NCBI RefSeq assembly: GCF_020096995.1
Contig: NZ_CP083692.1
Location: forward strand, 2,976,001 to 3,040,000
Length of the DNA stretch: 64,000 bases
Source of the DNA: Leucobacter sp. Psy1
GTDB lineage: Bacteria > Actinomycetota > Actinomycetes > Actinomycetales > Microbacteriaceae
Direction: 5' to 3'
The notes below the pieces were generated by a model. It saw only the letters and a program-made list of their open reading frames with translations, was not told the DNA's origin and did not search any database. Each line of letters begins with the position of its first letter. Within the stretch, counting starts at the first letter, position 1. Both the position numbers and the translations under genes were made by a program. Below, piece after piece: positions 20,368-50,451 of the stretch.

Positions 20368-23300
20368 CTATCGCTCGAACTCGGCCATCCATTCGTCGAG
20401 CTCGGGGGACGGTGCTCCCATGGCGTGGCGGTGCGTGCGCACCGAGATCGCCTGTTCGCGGAGCAGGCTGACGAGCTCGACCGGGCCCGCCATGGTGACG
20501 GGTTCGGCCCAGAGGGCGAGGTCGGCGCCACCGCTCATCCACTCGGCTGTGCGCACGCGATCGCCTCCGATCATGCGTACGCGGGCGACGGGCGCGCCGT
20601 CGACGGCGGGCGGCGTGACGACGACCCGTTCGAGCCAGTCGGTGTCGCTCTCGAGGGAGAGCGCGATGCCCTGCGTGCGGAGGAACGCCGTTACCGGATC
20701 AGGCAGCACGTGCCCGGTCGATACGGCGAACGGGGCACGCACGAGCAGTGCCGCCGCGATCACGCGCAGCAGCTCGGCAACGGGTTCGCCTTCGGAGAGC
20801 CGGATCTGCACGGGCACCGGCCAGTGTCTGAGGGCGTTGCGCTCGATCCCGAGTCCGACGGTGTCTCGGACGACGCCGAGCGAGGTGCGCCAGGCGAGCA
20901 CGTCGGCGAGCGCCGCGCGCCTGAGTTCGTCGAACTGCTCGTAAGAGAGCGCTTCCTGCGCGACCTCGATCAAGATCTGCACCTCCGGATCGAGCCCTCG
21001 CAGGTGCAGGGTCGAGCTGCGCGTCCCCTCGCGCACCTGCCAGGTGCCGAGCGTGAGGAGGCGTTGCGGCCCGCCCGAGAGCGCGGAGATGCCGGCGCCC
21101 GCGTCGTTCCACGCTCCACTGGGATGCCGCTCCACCCGAGCACCTGTGGTGGGCCGGTTGACGGCGAGCGCCGCAGCCTGCGCCCGGTCGAGCCAGTGGA
21201 GGATCTCGCGGGGGTCGAGCGATTGGAGCCCTGCAACCGCACCGCCGCCCGCCGACTGGGTCGCGATCGCGTCGCCGAGCGTGAAGGCGTGGGTGAGACC
21301 GAGCACGGGAAGGTCTCGCGCGTCCTCCCAGAACCGCGAACCGCTCGCGACCCCCAGACGCACGCCGGGGGCCCAGAGACGGCCGGTCTCGTCCAGCTGC
21401 CGCGGCTCCACGAGCCACTCCTCGCCCTTGTCGAGCTCGGTGAGCGCGCGGAGCCCCGCCGCGGATGGCGGAGCGGGCAGCGGCCCGATCTGGAACCCCA
21501 GGGGGTCGTTCGCACCCGGGGCCGCGGAGTCTCCGACCCGCAGGCCGCGCACGGCATCCGCCAGCCCCTCGCGGAAGCGTCGCGACCGGTGCACGGCGCC
21601 CACGAGGATGACCCGGCTGACCTCGCGCGGCCCCGGTTGACCGAAGGCCGAGGCGACGACGTCGGCGATGGCGGAGTCGATCTCGGCGGCCGGAGTGACG
21701 ATCACGCTTCCGGTCGCGGGGAACCTGCTGTCGAGCCGGAGCTCCGGCCGTCGCTGCGCGATCGCCCGCGATGCCCCTGGGCTCGCGAGCACCGTGGCAC
21801 GATCTACCGGCGTCTCGGCAGCACCCAGCGCGCGGGCGAACGCCACAGCACCGTCGGGATCCTGCTCATCACCCGGGGTGAGCGCGACGGTCGTCACGGT
21901 GTCGGCTGGCAACCCTGATCCCGCCCACTCCTCGATGAGCACGTCGGCGGCGCGGTGATGCGCGGCGGGGAGCGCCCACACCACGGCACTGCCCGCGGCG
22001 AGGAGCGCGACGACGCTCTCGACCTGATCGGCGAAGGTGGCCGATGCGCCCGCGATCACGACCCCGAGTCCGTCGGGGTGGAAGCTCGCGCCGCGCACCG
22101 CGTTCAGGTTCTCGGCGAGCTGACCCGTGTACCTGGCGACGTCGACGATGTCGGTGACGGTCGCGTCGATGACCCCGATCGGCGCGCCGACATCGGCGGC
22201 CATGGTCTCGGTGAGCCGGTCGCGCGCAGCGACGGTGGCGAGTGCAGCGCGCCGCAGGCGGGTCGCGCGCAGCGTGTGGTTCTGCGCCGCCCAGCGATCT
22301 CCGGCGGCGCGGGCGCGCTCCAGGATCCTTTCGATCTCGGGCGCTGCAGTGTCGGCTGCCGCAGTCTCCGCGGGTGCGGGTGCGGCCGCCGCGTTGCCAC
22401 GGTGCTCCGCCGCGCGCTCAAGCAGCTTCCGCGCCCACTCCCGGTTGGCTGGCACCGTCGCGTCGGTGACGGGTTCGGCGGCGAACCCGGACTGAGAGAC
22501 GACGGGGATCGCGATGGGCGAGCCCATCGCTTCGAGCTGCACCTCGCCGGTGTCCGCGCGCCCGAGCCCGAGCACTGCCGCGGTCAATCCACCCGTCTGG
22601 AACGGTGACGGATCGTCGGGCGCACGGTAGAACAGCGCACTGTCGCGCTCGCTCGGATCCCACTCCCGCGCACGCTGCTGCGTCCGTCGGACGGGCGGGA
22701 ACGGCTCTGACGCCGCTTCGAGGGCCGCGCGCAGGCGTGCATCCTCCGCGGCGAGCGCCTCAGTGTCGCCGCGCAGCACGCCGTCGAGGCGAGCAAGCGC
22801 TGAGGTCTCATCGGCTGCCTCGGCGGCGAGCCCGAGCAGCAGGTCGACGGCGCCGCCGAACTCGGCGGGGCGGACGAGGGGTTGCGCGATCCTGACTCCG
22901 GCCCGAGAGCGGGCGAGATGCTCCGCGAGATCGTCGCCGACCCCGGCGCGCAGTCGGAATCGGAGCATGCCTGCGAGGTCGCGTTCCTGCGCGATGGCTT
23001 CGACGGCGGCGATGAGGTGCGGATCATCGCTCGCGATCACGACGCGCACGACGGCGGCGTGCTCGGGGCGGAGCACCAGGTCGGCGAGCCTGAGCAGCTG
23101 CGCGTCGACCTCGGTGCGCTCGTCAAGCGCGGGGACCGCCAGGCCTGAGTGGATGGAGGCGATGCGTTCGGCACCGACGATGCCGCCGTGCTCGAGGACG
23201 ACCTCGAGCGGCGCCCCGCCCTCTGCAGCCCGGAGTCCGGCCCAGCGGAGCACCCGCTCGAGCAGCTCGCGGGAGTCGGGCAGTTCGGTCAGGATCCCCA

Positions 23301-24075
23301 CCCCCGCCCGCACTCGATCGAGTGCGGGATCCGCGAGTGCGCGGAGCATCACCTCGGGTACGAGGCGAGCAGCGCGATAGGACGAAGGTTCGAGCGTGAC
23401 GCCCACCTCGTGCGCGAGGGCGGCGCCGAGGAGCGGGCGGAGGCGCGTCACGGCATCCGAGACATCGGCCTCGAATGACCAGTCGGTCCCTCCGGGCATC
23501 ACCCGCTCGGCGTCGACGATGAGGTCGGTCACGCCGGGGAAGCCTGCAAGGGCGGTGAGTCGTTCCACCTCGCGATCCGCTGCGGCGGGGCCGTGGACGG
23601 GATCGCCGAGTAGACGCACCGAGGGTCTGAGGCCGGCAGCGGTGCGCCGCTCGAGGGCCGTCGCGAGTGCTGCCGCGCGGTTCGGGTGCTCGGGATCATT
23701 CGGCAGGCGCGCCGCGAGCACGAGGTGCTTCGCACGGTCGCGCAACCAGCGCCGCGCGATCGGCACGACCGCCCACGGAAGCCCGAGCGACGCGAGCCCA
23801 CCGGCGCGCACCGCGAGACGATCACGGACGGGAAGCGTCTGCGGCAGGTCCCTGGAGGCTTCCCTCAGCCCGAACGCCGTTGCGAAGGCGTCGTCCGACC
23901 CGGCGAGGAGGTCCATGACTCTCCGCGTGAACGCCAACCCGCTCGCATCGTGACGCGCACCACCGACCAGGTCAGGATGCTCGCGACCCGAAGTCCGGGC
24001 CTCACTGAGCGACCGCGCCCACTCGACGACTCGCGCCTCGGCGGCGTCCCCGACACCTTCCGAAAGCTCTGCCAT
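20368..24075 (-). CDS. PutA homologue with both active sites apparently lost
   Basis: This 1235-aa protein aligns end to end with actinobacterial bifunctional PutA (proline dehydrogenase then P5C/aldehyde dehydrogenase). The architecture is kept: helical N-terminus, TIM-barrel-like region (about 150-430), ALDH fold (about 540-1050) and the PutA C-terminal fold with VGLGIERNALRHWPVPV and LREQAISVRTHRHAMG. Key residues are not. The family RLVKGA motif reads VLEHGG (293-298); the C-terminal arginine pair is replaced; the ALDH GQKC motif reads GPRE (815-818), so the catalytic Cys is Glu; and the ETGGKN loop is gone. The frame is intact over 3.7 kb, which argues for a retained non-catalytic role. 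TACAGT lies 6 nt before the ATG. Confidence 0.85.
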   Translation of the reverse strand: MAELSEGVGDAAEARVVEWARSLSEARTSGREHPDLVGGARHDASGLAFTRRVMDLLAGSDDAFATAFGLREASRDLPQTLPVRDRLAVRAGGLASLGLPWAVVPIARRWLRDRAKHLVLAARLPNDPEHPNRAAALATALERRTAAGLRPSVRLLGDPVHGPAAADREVERLTALAGFPGVTDLIVDAERVMPGGTDWSFEADVSDAVTRLRPLLGAALAHEVGVTLEPSSYRAARLVPEVMLRALADPALDRVRAGVGILTELPDSRELLERVLRWAGLRAAEGGAPLEVVLEHGGIVGAERIASIHSGLAVPALDERTEVDAQLLRLADLVLRPEHAAVVRVVIASDDPHLIAAVEAIAQERDLAGMLRFRLRAGVGDDLAEHLARSRAGVRIAQPLVRPAEFGGAVDLLLGLAAEAADETSALARLDGVLRGDTEALAAEDARLRAALEAASEPFPPVRRTQQRAREWDPSERDSALFYRAPDDPSPFQTGGLTAAVLGLGRADTGEVQLEAMGSPIAIPVVSQSGFAAEPVTDATVPANREWARKLLERAAEHRGNAAAAPAPAETAAADTAAPEIERILERARAAGDRWAAQNHTLRATRLRRAALATVAARDRLTETMAADVGAPIGVIDATVTDIVDVARYTGQLAENLNAVRGASFHPDGLGVVIAGASATFADQVESVVALLAAGSAVVWALPAAHHRAADVLIEEWAGSGLPADTVTTVALTPGDEQDPDGAVAFARALGAAETPVDRATVLASPGASRAIAQRRPELRLDSRFPATGSVIVTPAAEIDSAIADVVASAFGQPGPREVSRVILVGAVHRSRRFREGLADAVRGLRVGDSAAPGANDPLGFQIGPLPAPPSAAGLRALTELDKGEEWLVEPRQLDETGRLWAPGVRLGVASGSRFWEDARDLPVLGLTHAFTLGDAIATQSAGGGAVAGLQSLDPREILHWLDRAQAAALAVNRPTTGARVERHPSGAWNDAGAGISALSGGPQRLLTLGTWQVREGTRSSTLHLRGLDPEVQILIEVAQEALSYEQFDELRRAALADVLAWRTSLGVVRDTVGLGIERNALRHWPVPVQIRLSEGEPVAELLRVIAAALLVRAPFAVSTGHVLPDPVTAFLRTQGIALSLESDTDWLERVVVTPPAVDGAPVARVRMIGGDRVRTAEWMSGGADLALWAEPVTMAGPVELVSLLREQAISVRTHRHAMGAPSPELDEWMAEFER

Positions 24076-24125
24076 AACCACACTGTAGGCGGGTCATCAG
24101 GGTTTTCCGCGGCGACGCGCAGCGG

Positions 24126-45173: not shown

Positions 45174-45965
45174 CTACCCGAGCATCGCCCGGTCGTCGAG
45201 CGTCGCCCCCTTGATCTTGGCGAACTCGTCGAGCAGGCCAGACACGGTCAGCGTGCGCTTCCGCTCGGCGTCAGCCTCGAAGACGATCCGCCCCTCGTGC
45301 ATCATGATGAGACGGTTGCCGAGGGCGAGCGCCTGCTCCATGTTGTGCGTCACCATGAGCGTCGTCAAATTTCCCTGCGAGACGATGCGCTCGGTGAGCT
45401 GGGTGACGAGCGCGGCACGCTGCGGGTCGAGGGCGGCGGTGTGCTCGTCGAGGAGCAGGATCCGGGGCTTGGTGAACCCTGCCATGAGCAGCGACAGCGC
45501 CTGGCGCTGACCACCGGAGAGCAGTCCGACCTTCGCGGTCAACCGGTTCTCGAGTCCGAGCTCGAGCGTCGCCAGGTGCTCTTTGAAGCCCTCGCGCTGG
45601 CCGCGCGACAGACTTGGGCCGAGACCGCGCGACTGACCGCGACGCGAGGCGAGGGCGAGGTTCTGCTCGATCGTGAGGCTGGGTGCGGTGCCCGCCATCG
45701 GATCCTGGAACACCCGGCCGAGGAACTTCGCCCGCTGGTACTCCTTGAGCCGGTTGACGAGCTTGCCGTCGATCTCGATGCGTCCGCTGTCGACGGTGTA
45801 GCGCCCGGAGATCGCGTTCAGCAGCGTGGACTTGCCGGCACCGTTCGAGCCGATGACGGTGACGAAATCGCCCTCGTCGAGCCGGAGACCGAGTTCGACG
45901 AGCGCGCGGCGCTCGTTCACGGTGCCGGGGAAGAAGGTCTTGGAGATCTGGTCGATGGCGAGCAT
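45174..45965 (-). CDS. TrpXYZ-type ABC transporter, ATP-binding protein
   Basis: This 263-aa ATPase has Walker A GSNGAGKSTLL, signature LLSGGQRQALSL, Walker B ILLLDEHTAALDP and the H-loop VTHNMEQAL. The DEH variant at Walker B (DEHT instead of DEPT) is characteristic of this subfamily. Its ATG overlaps the permease stop by one base. It powers the uptake system encoded by 45174-48164. Confidence 0.93.
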   Translation of the reverse strand: MLAIDQISKTFFPGTVNERRALVELGLRLDEGDFVTVIGSNGAGKSTLLNAISGRYTVDSGRIEIDGKLVNRLKEYQRAKFLGRVFQDPMAGTAPSLTIEQNLALASRRGQSRGLGPSLSRGQREGFKEHLATLELGLENRLTAKVGLLSGGQRQALSLLMAGFTKPRILLLDEHTAALDPQRAALVTQLTERIVSQGNLTTLMVTHNMEQALALGNRLIMMHEGRIVFEADAERKRTLTVSGLLDEFAKIKGATLDDRAMLG

Positions 45966-47023
45966 TACTCCCCCTGGTGCTGAGTCGTGGTGCGGTGGGC
46001 GGATCCGGGGGTTCCGGCCGGTGCGGCATCGGGGCCCTCGCCCGCTTCGTCACCGATTCCGGTGACATCGGCGGCCGAGTCAGCCGCCGCGAGCGCCGGC
46101 GCAGGCTGGTCGAGGACCACTGTGCCTGCTGCTCGCCGCAGTCGGGGGACGCGTTTCAGGAACCCCCAGCGCGGCAGCAGCAGGGCTGCGACGACAAGGA
46201 CGGCGGTGACGAACTTCATGTCGTTCGGGTCGAGACCGACCTGCAGGGCGAAGAAGATGATGAGGCGGTAAAGCACGGCGCCGAGCACCGCCGCGAGGCT
46301 CGCAATCCAGATGAACTTCTGGCCGAAGACCGCCTGGCCGAGAATGACCGATGCGAGGCCGACGAGGATGAGGCCGATGCCCATGCTGATGTCGGCGAAC
46401 CCCTGGTACTGGGCGACGAGCGCGCCGCAGAGCGCGACGAGACCGTTGGAGAGCGCCAGGGTGAGGATCGTGGTGCGATCGGTGCTGACGCCGAAGCTGC
46501 GGATCATCGGGCCGTTGTCGCCCGTGGCCTGGATGGCGAGGCCTTGATTCGTCGAGAGGAACCAGTCGACCAGGAGCTTCACGATGATCACGGCGACCGC
46601 CACGATGGCGATGCTCATCCAGCTGCGCGCGATGCCGGCATCGGCGAGGGGCGTGAAGACGGTGTCGGCACGGAGGAGCGGCAGGTTCGACGTGCTCACG
46701 GCGTCCTCTTTGGTGGTGCCCATAATGCGCAGGTTCACCGACCACAGCGCGATCATGGTCAGGATCCCGGCCAGGAGCCCGTCGATCTTGCCCTTGGTGT
46801 GGAGCACACCCGTGATGATGCCGGCCACGATGCCTGCGGCTCCACCCGCCAGTGTGGCGAGCCACGGGTTCTGCCCGAGCGTGATCATGGACGCCGCCAC
46901 CGCGGCACCGGTGGTGAAGCTGCCGTCGACCGTGAGGTCGGGGAAGTTCAGCACCTTGAAGGTGAGGTAGACACCCAAGGCCATGACGCCGTAGATGATT
47001 CCGAGTTCGAGGGCGCCGATCAT
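45965..47023 (-). CDS. TrpXYZ-type ABC transporter, permease
   Basis: This 352-aa permease of the branched-chain/ribose type has about nine transmembrane helices. Typical stretches: MALGVYLTFKVLNFPDLTVDGSF (quoted in part), GKIDGLLAGILTMIALWSVNLR and VGLASVILGQAVFG. The C-terminal 70 residues form a long, poorly conserved Pro/Ala/Thr-rich cytoplasmic tail. It follows the binding-protein gene after a hairpin. Confidence 0.92.
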   Translation of the reverse strand: MIGALELGIIYGVMALGVYLTFKVLNFPDLTVDGSFTTGAAVAASMITLGQNPWLATLAGGAAGIVAGIITGVLHTKGKIDGLLAGILTMIALWSVNLRIMGTTKEDAVSTSNLPLLRADTVFTPLADAGIARSWMSIAIVAVAVIIVKLLVDWFLSTNQGLAIQATGDNGPMIRSFGVSTDRTTILTLALSNGLVALCGALVAQYQGFADISMGIGLILVGLASVILGQAVFGQKFIWIASLAAVLGAVLYRLIIFFALQVGLDPNDMKFVTAVLVVAALLLPRWGFLKRVPRLRRAAGTVVLDQPAPALAAADSAADVTGIGDEAGEGPDAAPAGTPGSAHRTTTQHQGE

Positions 47024-47073
47024 GACGTCATTTCCTTACACGCATCCTTCTGCAGTGCGACGCCTGGGCGCCG

Positions 47074-47127
47074 CTCGGCCACCGGTTCCCCGGCTCCGCG
47101 GCTCGCGGGGCCGGGGAACCGGCCGAG
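47074..47127 (-). terminator. Intra-operon hairpin after the binding-protein gene
   Basis: The arms CTCGGCCACCGGTTCCCCGGC (47074-47094, first 20 nt shown would suffice) and GCCGGGGAACCGGCCGAG (47110-47127) pair with one bulged A. It lies between the substrate-binding protein and the permease genes, so it probably works as a partial terminator or 3' stabiliser that raises binding-protein mRNA. Confidence 0.65.
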
Positions 47128-47153
47128 TACTTCAAGCGGGAGTCGCCGAGCGG

Positions 47154-48164
47154 TTACTCGACGACGTCCGCACCCTCCATGACGGAGTCGGGGATCTCGA
47201 CGCCCATGCGCTCCGCCGCAGCGGGGTTCACAGTGTTCGCGAGCGTCGCCGCCATCTCGACGGGGGTGGTGGCGGGGTCGCCGCCCTCGAGGATCGCGAT
47301 CGCCATCTCGCCGGTCTGCTTGCCGAGCGCCTCGTAGTCGATGCCCATCGTGGCGATCGCACCGCCCTCGACGGTACCGGCCTCAGCGGCGATCACGGGG
47401 ATCTGCTTCTGCTCGGCGACCTGCACGAGCGCAGCGATGCCGTTCACGACCATGTTGTCGGTCGGCACGTAGATCGCGTCGACATCGCCGAGCGCCTCGG
47501 TGGCCTGCGCGATGTCGTTCGCGGTGGTGACGGTCTGCGTCACGATCTCGAGATCGCGATCCGCCGCGACCTCCGTCGCCTGCTCGACCTGGACCTCAGA
47601 GTTGACCTCGCCCGAGGCGTAGACGATGCCGACCTTCTTCGCGTCGGGCACCATCTCGGTGATGAGGTCGAACTGGCCCTCGAGCGCCTCCGGCGGCACC
47701 GCGTCGCTGGTACCGGTGATGTTGCCGCCGGGCTCCTCGTTCGAATCGACGAGATCGGCCTCGACGGCGTCGGTCACTGCGGTGAAGAGGACGGGGTAGG
47801 TCGAGACGGAGCTCGCCAGCGCCTGCGCGGCCGGGGTCGCGATCGCGAGTGCGAGGTCCAGGTCCTCATTCGCGAACGACTCCGCGATGGTGACGGCGGT
47901 CGCCTGCTCTCCCTGAGCGTTCTGCTCGTCGAACTCGACCTCGAGACCGGCCTCTTCGAAGGCGGCCTTGAAGCCCTCGGAAGCGGCGTCGAGCGCGGGG
48001 TGCGGAGCGAACTGGCTGATGCCAATGCTGTAGCTCTCGCCCTCGCCGCCCGCGCCTTCGTCGCCGGCATCGTTGCCGTTCGCGCAGGAGGTCAGGGTGA
48101 GGGCCGCAGCTGCGGAGAGGCCGACGAGCGCGAGCGCGCGGCGGCGGAACGAGGTCTGTCGCAT
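47154..48164 (-). CDS. ABC transporter substrate-binding lipoprotein (PF04392 type)
   Basis: This 336-aa lipoprotein has a signal peptide with RRRALALVGL, lipobox TLTSC, and an acidic linker (NDAGDEGAGGEGE). The binding domain has GISQFAPHPALDAASEGFKAA (in part) and VLFTAVTDAVEADLVDS, the ABC_sub_bind (TrpX-like) family. In firmicutes such systems import tryptophan or other aromatic amino acids; here the substrate is unproven. The ATG at 48164 is followed by the basic n-region, and upstream extensions lack signal-peptide shape. Confidence 0.92.
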   Translation of the reverse strand: MRQTSFRRRALALVGLSAAAALTLTSCANGNDAGDEGAGGEGESYSIGISQFAPHPALDAASEGFKAAFEEAGLEVEFDEQNAQGEQATAVTIAESFANEDLDLALAIATPAAQALASSVSTYPVLFTAVTDAVEADLVDSNEEPGGNITGTSDAVPPEALEGQFDLITEMVPDAKKVGIVYASGEVNSEVQVEQATEVAADRDLEIVTQTVTTANDIAQATEALGDVDAIYVPTDNMVVNGIAALVQVAEQKQIPVIAAEAGTVEGGAIATMGIDYEALGKQTGEMAIAILEGGDPATTPVEMAATLANTVNPAAAERMGVEIPDSVMEGADVVE

Positions 48165-49890: not shown

Positions 49891-50451
49891 TCACCCTGCG
49901 GCGTCGAACGCTCCGGTCGCCACGATGATTCCGCGACCGATCACGGCGTCGCGCATCGTGAAGCCCAGCACAGCGGGAGTCGACTGCGGGTCGAGATGCA
50001 GGTGCTCGACGTTCAGCGCGTGCACCACGAACCAGTAGTGATGCACACCGGTCCCCTCCGGCGGAGCGGCACCCGTGAACGCGGGTTCGCGCAACTCGTT
50101 CGGCAGCGTGAGCGCCCCCTCGGGTAGTTGTGCCTCCGCTCCCGGCGATCCCGCCCCCGAGGGCAGCGACGTGACATCGGCGGGAATGTTCGCGACCGCC
50201 CAGTGCCAGAAGCCGGACCCGGTGGGTGCATCGGGGTCGAAGCACGTCACAGCGAAACTGCGCGTCTCAGCCGGAAACCCCGACCAGGAGAGCTGCGGAG
50301 ACCGATTCGCTCCACCCGCACCGGTCGCGTAGACCTCCGCCGGAAGCGGCTCACCATCCTCGATGTCGGTGCTCGTCAGCTCGAAGGCCGGAGCGTCGGG
50401 AACCGCGGCGAACGGATCGATCGGTCCGTGGGCTGGGTGGTCCTGCGTCAT
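49891..50451 (-). CDS. YbhB/YbcL family PEBP (Raf kinase inhibitor-like) protein
   Basis: This 186-aa phosphatidylethanolamine-binding-like protein has the pocket motif [21 protein letters not shown] and the second family motif [13 protein letters not shown]. It has no signal peptide. The biochemical role of bacterial members is unclear. GGGAGCAG lies before the ATG. Confidence 0.93.

Follow-up and report, generated by a model that had tools for sequence, protein, structure and literature searches.

The window examined here, a stretch of 64,000 nucleotides from Leucobacter sp. Psy1 (contig NZ_CP083692.1, positions 2,976,001 to 3,040,000), encodes a PutA-like protein of full length that has lost both of its catalytic centres, that of proline dehydrogenase (PRODH) and that of aldehyde dehydrogenase (ALDH), and that is retained throughout the genus. 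PutA is a textbook two-site channelling enzyme. The sequences make it very probable that the gene specifies a conserved pseudoenzyme. The explanation we favor, to which we give an even chance, is that of a non-catalytic protein with the PutA fold which descended from a PutA2 copy, is kept by purifying selection and acts chiefly through its C-terminal domain, as a binding protein or scaffold. A first-pass annotation made from the DNA letters had described a full-length PutA-like protein with both centres destroyed, and this description is confirmed by the domain matches and by the loss of residues at ten active-site positions. Proteins and genes of this kind are called dead in the following, those with intact sites live.

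The dead gene lies on the minus strand, starts with an ATG at 24075 and continues without interruption to the final codon at 20371. It is preceded by a -10-like hexamer, and no ribosome-binding motif was seen before the ATG. The gene and its parts are as follows.

20371..24075, minus strand: dead PutA-like protein, 1235 residues, identified by open reading frame, Pfam and structure-sequence match; stop codon at 20368-20370
24082..24087, minus strand: TACAGT, -10-like hexamer of a leaderless promoter, 6 nucleotides before the ATG
22801..23655, minus strand: PRODH-like barrel, residues 141-425; Lys replaced by H296, His of GHN by D350, Tyr of LYTP by A397, Arg-Arg by G415/L416
22381..22800, minus strand: linker, residues 426-565, including a stretch that dead proteins have in common, EWDPSERDSALFYR...TGGLTAAVLGL
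21052..22380, minus strand: ALDH-like domain, residues 566-1008; Asn of PWNFP replaced by S678, Lys of FKPA by A701, Glu of ETSGKN by R784, Cys of GQKC by P816
20428..21051, minus strand: C-terminal domain, residues 1009-1216, the most conserved part within the dead family

By sequence, the protein has the PutA architecture of PRODH, ALDH and C-terminal domain. Pfam identifies Pro_dh (E 2.1e-11, residues 142-402) and Aldedh (E 7.6e-24, residues 574-996); a search up to E 10 returned these two domains only, with no N-terminal ribbon-helix-helix or other DNA-binding domain. The top match among solved structures is a PutA, 5UX5 (E 8.4e-93), with the PRODH, ALDH and C-terminal parts each covered by its own aligned stretch. 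The curated NCBIfam cut-offs for PutA and P5CDH are not reached (top score 64.5 bits, cut-off 659.65), and a scan of viral contigs revealed no relative. A normal PutA, whose presence the first-pass annotation had proposed to check, is encoded far from the dead gene in the same genome; it has 1189 residues with RVVKGA, GQKC and ETSGKN, and is 36% identical to the window protein over residues 518-1223 and 26% over residues 9-455.

Roles have been assigned to the motif residues of both the PRODH and the ALDH domain of PutA. The replacements listed above were read from an alignment with this live PutA. The window protein lacks the PRODH catalytic residues and the motif residues for flavin adenine dinucleotide (FAD) and proline, as well as the ALDH Cys, Glu and Asn and the motif residues for nicotinamide adenine dinucleotide (NAD). 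The accessible part of PMC10650815 names Cys, Glu and Asn as the catalytic residues of ALDH, and that of PMC12398946 a C844S variant of SmPutA. The losses of the PRODH motif, the C-terminal arginines and the ETGGKN loop that had been read from the letters are thus all borne out by the alignment. The loss of the ALDH Cys also stands, but not its replacement by Glu818, which came from an ungapped reading; alignment with a two-residue gap gives P816. A catalytic Cys elsewhere in the chain, which had been named as an observation that would speak against the claim, is excluded for the window protein, which contains no Cys and three Lys (K116, K550 and K883); across the dead proteins, Cys makes up no more than 16% of any column that has residues in 20 or more of the 43 rows.

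The same losses characterize the whole dead clade. Among 44 dead sequences, 39 from the 54 Leucobacter genomes and five from the genera g6, g47 and g51, the family residue is retained in none at eight of the ten active-site positions and in five and one, respectively, at the two arginines. These 44 sequences comprise the 43 rows of the tree and L149; three entries were removed before the first tree, namely a second copy of the window protein, L089, which is in two pieces, and L098, whose gene is split. All ten positions are intact in 68 of the 78 other PutA sequences, ten partly eroded PutA2-type copies (L086, L087, L088, L090, L150, L156, L157, L158, L167 and L168) having been set aside before the live ones were counted. 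The comparison of 44 dead with 78 other sequences therefore reveals homology to an enzyme with the catalytic residues gone across orthologues, as is characteristic of a pseudoenzyme. Most of the former active-site positions are now variable in the dead family. Two carry preferred substitutions: Glu or Asp takes the place of the GHN His in 43 of 44 proteins (residue 350 in the window protein), and Arg or His that of the ETSGKN Glu in 36 of 44.

The second mark of a pseudoenzyme, purifying selection on the inactive gene, is also found. An orthologue was present in all 54 Leucobacter genomes examined (top match at least 45% identity; 86% in Leucobacter tardus), and none without the dead gene was seen among them. 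The frame is open over at least 1190 codons in 49 of the 54; among these long frames, the first ~60 residues in G017 and the last ~50 in G008 are unmatched. In the other five the gene is cut by contig ends (G036 and G045) or split (G012, G021 and G032). The ratio of nonsynonymous to synonymous substitution rates (dN/dS), calculated pairwise with an NG86 script, was 0.073-0.190 for the dead gene in six genome pairs, compared with 0.025-0.176 for live PutA in the same pairs, and the dead value was 0.9 to 1.3 times the live one in four of the six. Four further dead pairs gave 0.045-0.132. A leaderless start, TANNNT 6-7 nucleotides before the ATG, was found at 43 of 44 dead genes (the 43 tree rows and L098), with the exception of L016, which lacks a true 5' end; the choice of starts was guided in part by the leaderless pattern, which favors this figure, and a separate listing of starts was made without that choice. 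Since most of the live PutA2 genes listed show this kind of start as well, the trait appears to be inherited. An uninterrupted, maintained frame with its own leaderless promoter, as claimed in the first-pass annotation, is thus supported by the hexamer, the 54 orthologues and dN/dS values of 0.05-0.19.

Judged from sequence, constraint is inverted in the dead family, having shifted away from the catalytic domains and onto the linker and the C-terminal domain. Within the genus, the mean pairwise identity of 39 dead sequences, compared with that of 21 live PutA sequences from partly different genomes, was 0.69 against 0.62 in the C-terminal domain, 0.53 against 0.85 in PRODH, 0.58 against 0.81 in ALDH, 0.52 against 0.77 in the N-terminal part and 0.58 against 0.66 in the linker. 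Columns invariant at 95% or more number 228 in the dead family. In PRODH they account for 24 of 285 columns in 43 dead rows but 181 of 285 in 25 live PutA1 rows; the corresponding numbers for the C-terminal domain are 71 of 208 and 59 of 204. Among the parts of the dead protein the C-terminal domain has the lowest dN/dS (0.044 and 0.091 in two pairs). Compared with a less eroded relative, either L087, which itself lacks the ALDH Glu, or the live L056, its identity spans 0.41-0.59 across nine pairs drawn from three groups of dead proteins and 0.39-0.57 across four reference pairs, one of which is L087/L056, whereas PRODH identity is 0.24-0.41 in dead proteins and 0.59-0.78 in the reference pairs. 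The linker of the dead proteins is longer than that of the live PutA of the same genome and includes the segment conserved in the dead family.

Live PutA was found in 45 of the 54 Leucobacter genomes, in a few of them split, and in all five carriers of the dead clade checked in other genera (G099, G140, G172, G103 and G252). The other nine Leucobacter genomes (G001, G015, G022, G025, G035, G041, G045, G047 and G052) keep the dead gene without live PutA: their top match to a live PutA query is the dead gene itself, and a Pro_dh search yielded no match in five and only the dead gene in four. Completeness is at least 94% and contamination at most 5% in six of the nine; of the other three, two are less complete (G041, 72%; G045, 76%) and one, G035, carries 7% contamination. 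Relaxation of the dead gene where live PutA is missing was considered and not seen: the median distance to the ancestor is 0.936 in these genomes (n=8, the piece of a gene in G045 being left out) and 0.930 in the others (n=31; p 0.64). Since the nine genomes retain the dead gene, at unchanged divergence in the eight measured, a role in proline metabolism is not supported. The first-pass proposal thus divides: its pseudoenzyme part is strongly supported by the orthologues, purifying selection and catalytic loss, but its suggestion of a role in proline or glutamate metabolism finds no support. In two side observations, the live PutA of G002 (G002:C1:910737-914315) holds one internal TAA, which may reflect ongoing gene loss or a sequencing error, and three Leucobacter genomes encode extra Pro_dh-like proteins with frames of 389-409 codons (G042:C4:371530, G033:C11:251309 and G016:C6:81975).

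Because the dead PutA is kept even in species in which no working copy was found, it probably has another job. According to the scheme we favor, a second, once active PutA copy of the Microbacteriaceae, of the PutA2 lineage, would have lost both catalytic centres, after which purifying selection would have maintained the full-length PutA-fold protein for a non-catalytic task. The C-terminal domain together with the linker would form the working surface and bind a protein partner or the membrane, as is thought for the same domain of live PutA, though here the binding would be permanent and independent of any proline or flavin switch; the catalytic domains would serve as the body of the protein. 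In the accessible part of PMC5293562, the C-terminal domain of live PutA is proposed to couple the two catalytic domains and to take part in proline-gated and redox-gated membrane binding. That this binding role has become permanent, with the catalytic domains as body, is a step we regard as about equally likely to be right or wrong, and a scaffold or binding role, as the first-pass annotation had also envisaged, is consistent with the sequences. Several observations weigh against this scheme. In two of the six genome pairs dN/dS of the dead gene is 1.8 and 2.9 times that of live PutA (0.118 vs 0.064 and 0.073 vs 0.025), and the identities of dead and live domains were calculated on sets of genomes that overlap only in part. 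The catalytic domains have been retained as well and therefore must also matter, and slow evolution of the C-terminal domain could stem from fold stability instead of a partner. Gene order points to no partner, the ABC importer genes that are frequent neighbors not being beside the dead gene in 17 of 43 loci. AlphaFold prediction for residues 36-1219, supplied with one orthologue (L004), gave a mean pLDDT of 33.5, and the model was not used.

In another explanation, the dead copy would be a partner or regulator of live PutA (PutA1), tuning proline oxidation in mixed oligomers, and the two proteins do occur together in 45 of 54 Leucobacter genomes and in the five carriers from other genera. This is nevertheless quite improbable given the nine genomes without live PutA or another Pro_dh match, in which the rate is unchanged, a genome of genus g73 (G187) with a dead copy only and no live PutA, and the distance between the two genes in the window genome. 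A sensor that binds proline, Δ1-pyrroline-5-carboxylate or a nucleotide without turnover would recall live trifunctional PutA, which, according to the accessible part of PMC5293562, senses proline through its flavin. The tested catalytic and cofactor motif residues, those for FAD, proline and NAD among them, are absent from every or nearly every dead sequence, mostly in favor of variable residues, which makes a redox or cofactor-sensing role unlikely and speaks against the sensing function the first-pass annotation had suggested; with no DNA-binding domain found by Pfam, this explanation is improbable too.

A new enzyme, with the old pockets rebuilt for another reaction or ligand, would account for the near-invariant Glu/Asp and Arg/His replacements and for the 228 conserved columns. 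It is an unlikely but more serious candidate, as most of the old active-site positions are variable and invariant columns are sparse in PRODH compared with the C-terminal domain. Decay to a pseudogene or an annotation artefact, which the five genomes without one long frame might suggest, is almost certainly wrong in view of the dN/dS values, the long open frames, the leaderless starts and the vertical inheritance of the gene at a retained locus.

The dead clade received a Shimodaira-Hasegawa-like approximate likelihood ratio test (SH-aLRT) value of 100 in a mixture-model tree, built by a fast search with no bootstrap from 43 of 63 alignment rows, these 63 being taken from 122. It falls in the PutA2 lineage with L086, L087, L150 and the proteins of genus g73 (SH-aLRT 100; linker and C-terminal signatures); the branching order inside this group is left open by the tree. 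In the less eroded L086 and L087 the PRODH positions are intact and so is the ALDH Cys, though the ALDH Glu is gone from L087; L150 lacks the ALDH site and one of the PRODH arginines. In g73, L158, L167 and L168 are PutA2-type proteins without either site. In genus g17 the loss in L090 is confined to the ALDH site (Asn, Glu and Cys); both sites are missing from the sister pair of L090, L156/L157, for which the mixture-model tree gives a separate origin. A single origin of all dead PutAs was considered, since with FastTree the dead proteins of g73 and g17 grouped with those of Leucobacter (0.96 and 0.90); in the mixture-model tree the g17 ones are instead placed next to L090, which is from their own genus (SH-aLRT 100). 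Long-branch attraction is the likely cause of this conflict, and at least two origins were counted; the loss of both sites thus appears to have arisen at least twice in the Microbacteriaceae. Live PutA1 is encoded elsewhere in the genomes of L088 (G142; both sites eroded), L150 (G071) and L090 (G069; ALDH site lost in both).

The dead clade was found in 10 of 239 family genomes drawn and in 4 of 85 genera (E 1e-130, two candidates scored per genome), with no match in G058 of genus g6 at that threshold. In 198 genomes of the order, the top match outside the family scored 369 bits, compared with at least 784 bits for full-length dead genes outside the genus. Tree and gene order together indicate vertical inheritance at a retained locus.

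The relationship to 5UX5 is one of homology over the whole length, including the N-terminal part, except that the dead protein lacks the catalytic motif residues. We take 5UX5 to be the 'class 3B' PutA of Corynebacterium freiburgense. The live PutA2 proteins L095 and L056 of other Microbacteriaceae and L086 and L087 belong to the same lineage by tree and by signatures such as TLHLRGL; unlike the dead proteins, L095 and L056 keep all ten active-site positions. A further parallel is ALDH16A1, described in the accessible part of PMC10650815 as a human ALDH pseudoenzyme of the same superfamily that lacks catalytic residues and is thought to bind other proteins; compared with that account, the dead PutA is bacterial, has lost a PRODH and an ALDH centre in one chain and has done so more than once. 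Pseudoenzymes as such are known. Among the titles listed by searches of open-access literature, several of them noisy because the term PutA also matches 'putative', there was no pseudoenzyme of PutA or of proline dehydrogenase, and no PutA with both centres lost that is conserved genus-wide and has evolved more than once.

To judge from the available portion of PMC5293562, the PutA C-terminal domain has so far been assessed chiefly by effects on catalysis, channelling and membrane switching. Here both activities have been removed naturally with the rest of the protein kept and the C-terminal domain under the strongest constraint. It is conceivable, though somewhat less than an even bet, that the actinobacterial PutA C-terminal domain has a cellular function of its own, apart from proline oxidation and strong enough to retain dead PutAs, so that pseudo-PutAs would constitute a recurrent class of bacterial scaffolds or membrane tethers. 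If so, the genus provides a natural knock-out of both centres that isolates this function. The dead PutA is also a warning for annotation: it passes both Pfam cut-offs, and domain counts would therefore score the gene as proline catabolism.

The usual gene order at dead loci is a TrhO-like gene, a GntR gene (opposite strand), a PEBP gene, an ABC importer (PF04392/PF02653/PF00005), the dead PutA and a GNAT gene (opposite strand). One of 44 dead loci had too little flank to be counted. Of the remaining 43, 26 have the ABC genes immediately upstream of the dead PutA, 7 have PEBP without ABC, 4 have PEBP within 1.5 kb and 6 have neither; GNAT is downstream in 26. In the window, TrhO, GntR, PEBP and the ABC genes occur in the usual order, but the importer lies 21 kb upstream.

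45174..48164, minus strand: ABC importer (ATPase, permease, PF04392-type binding protein)
49906..50448, minus strand: PEBP-family gene, a further member of the conserved gene order

The intervening 21-kb stretch (24126-45174) contains PaaC, PaaD and PaaE of phenylacetate degradation. The importer was rejected as a functional partner, being non-adjacent in the 17 loci and the dead gene having its own leaderless start, and serves as a lead only; PEBP, GNAT and GntR were likewise rejected, shared gene order alone providing no functional link. In several genera, PutA2 genes, whether working or dead, have a 4HBT_2 thioesterase-like gene on their upstream side.

L086, 6656-7258: 4HBT_2 thioesterase-like gene
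L087, 5096-5668: 4HBT_2 thioesterase-like gene
L169, 8850-9434: 4HBT_2 thioesterase-like gene
L171, 4418-5140: 4HBT_2 thioesterase-like gene

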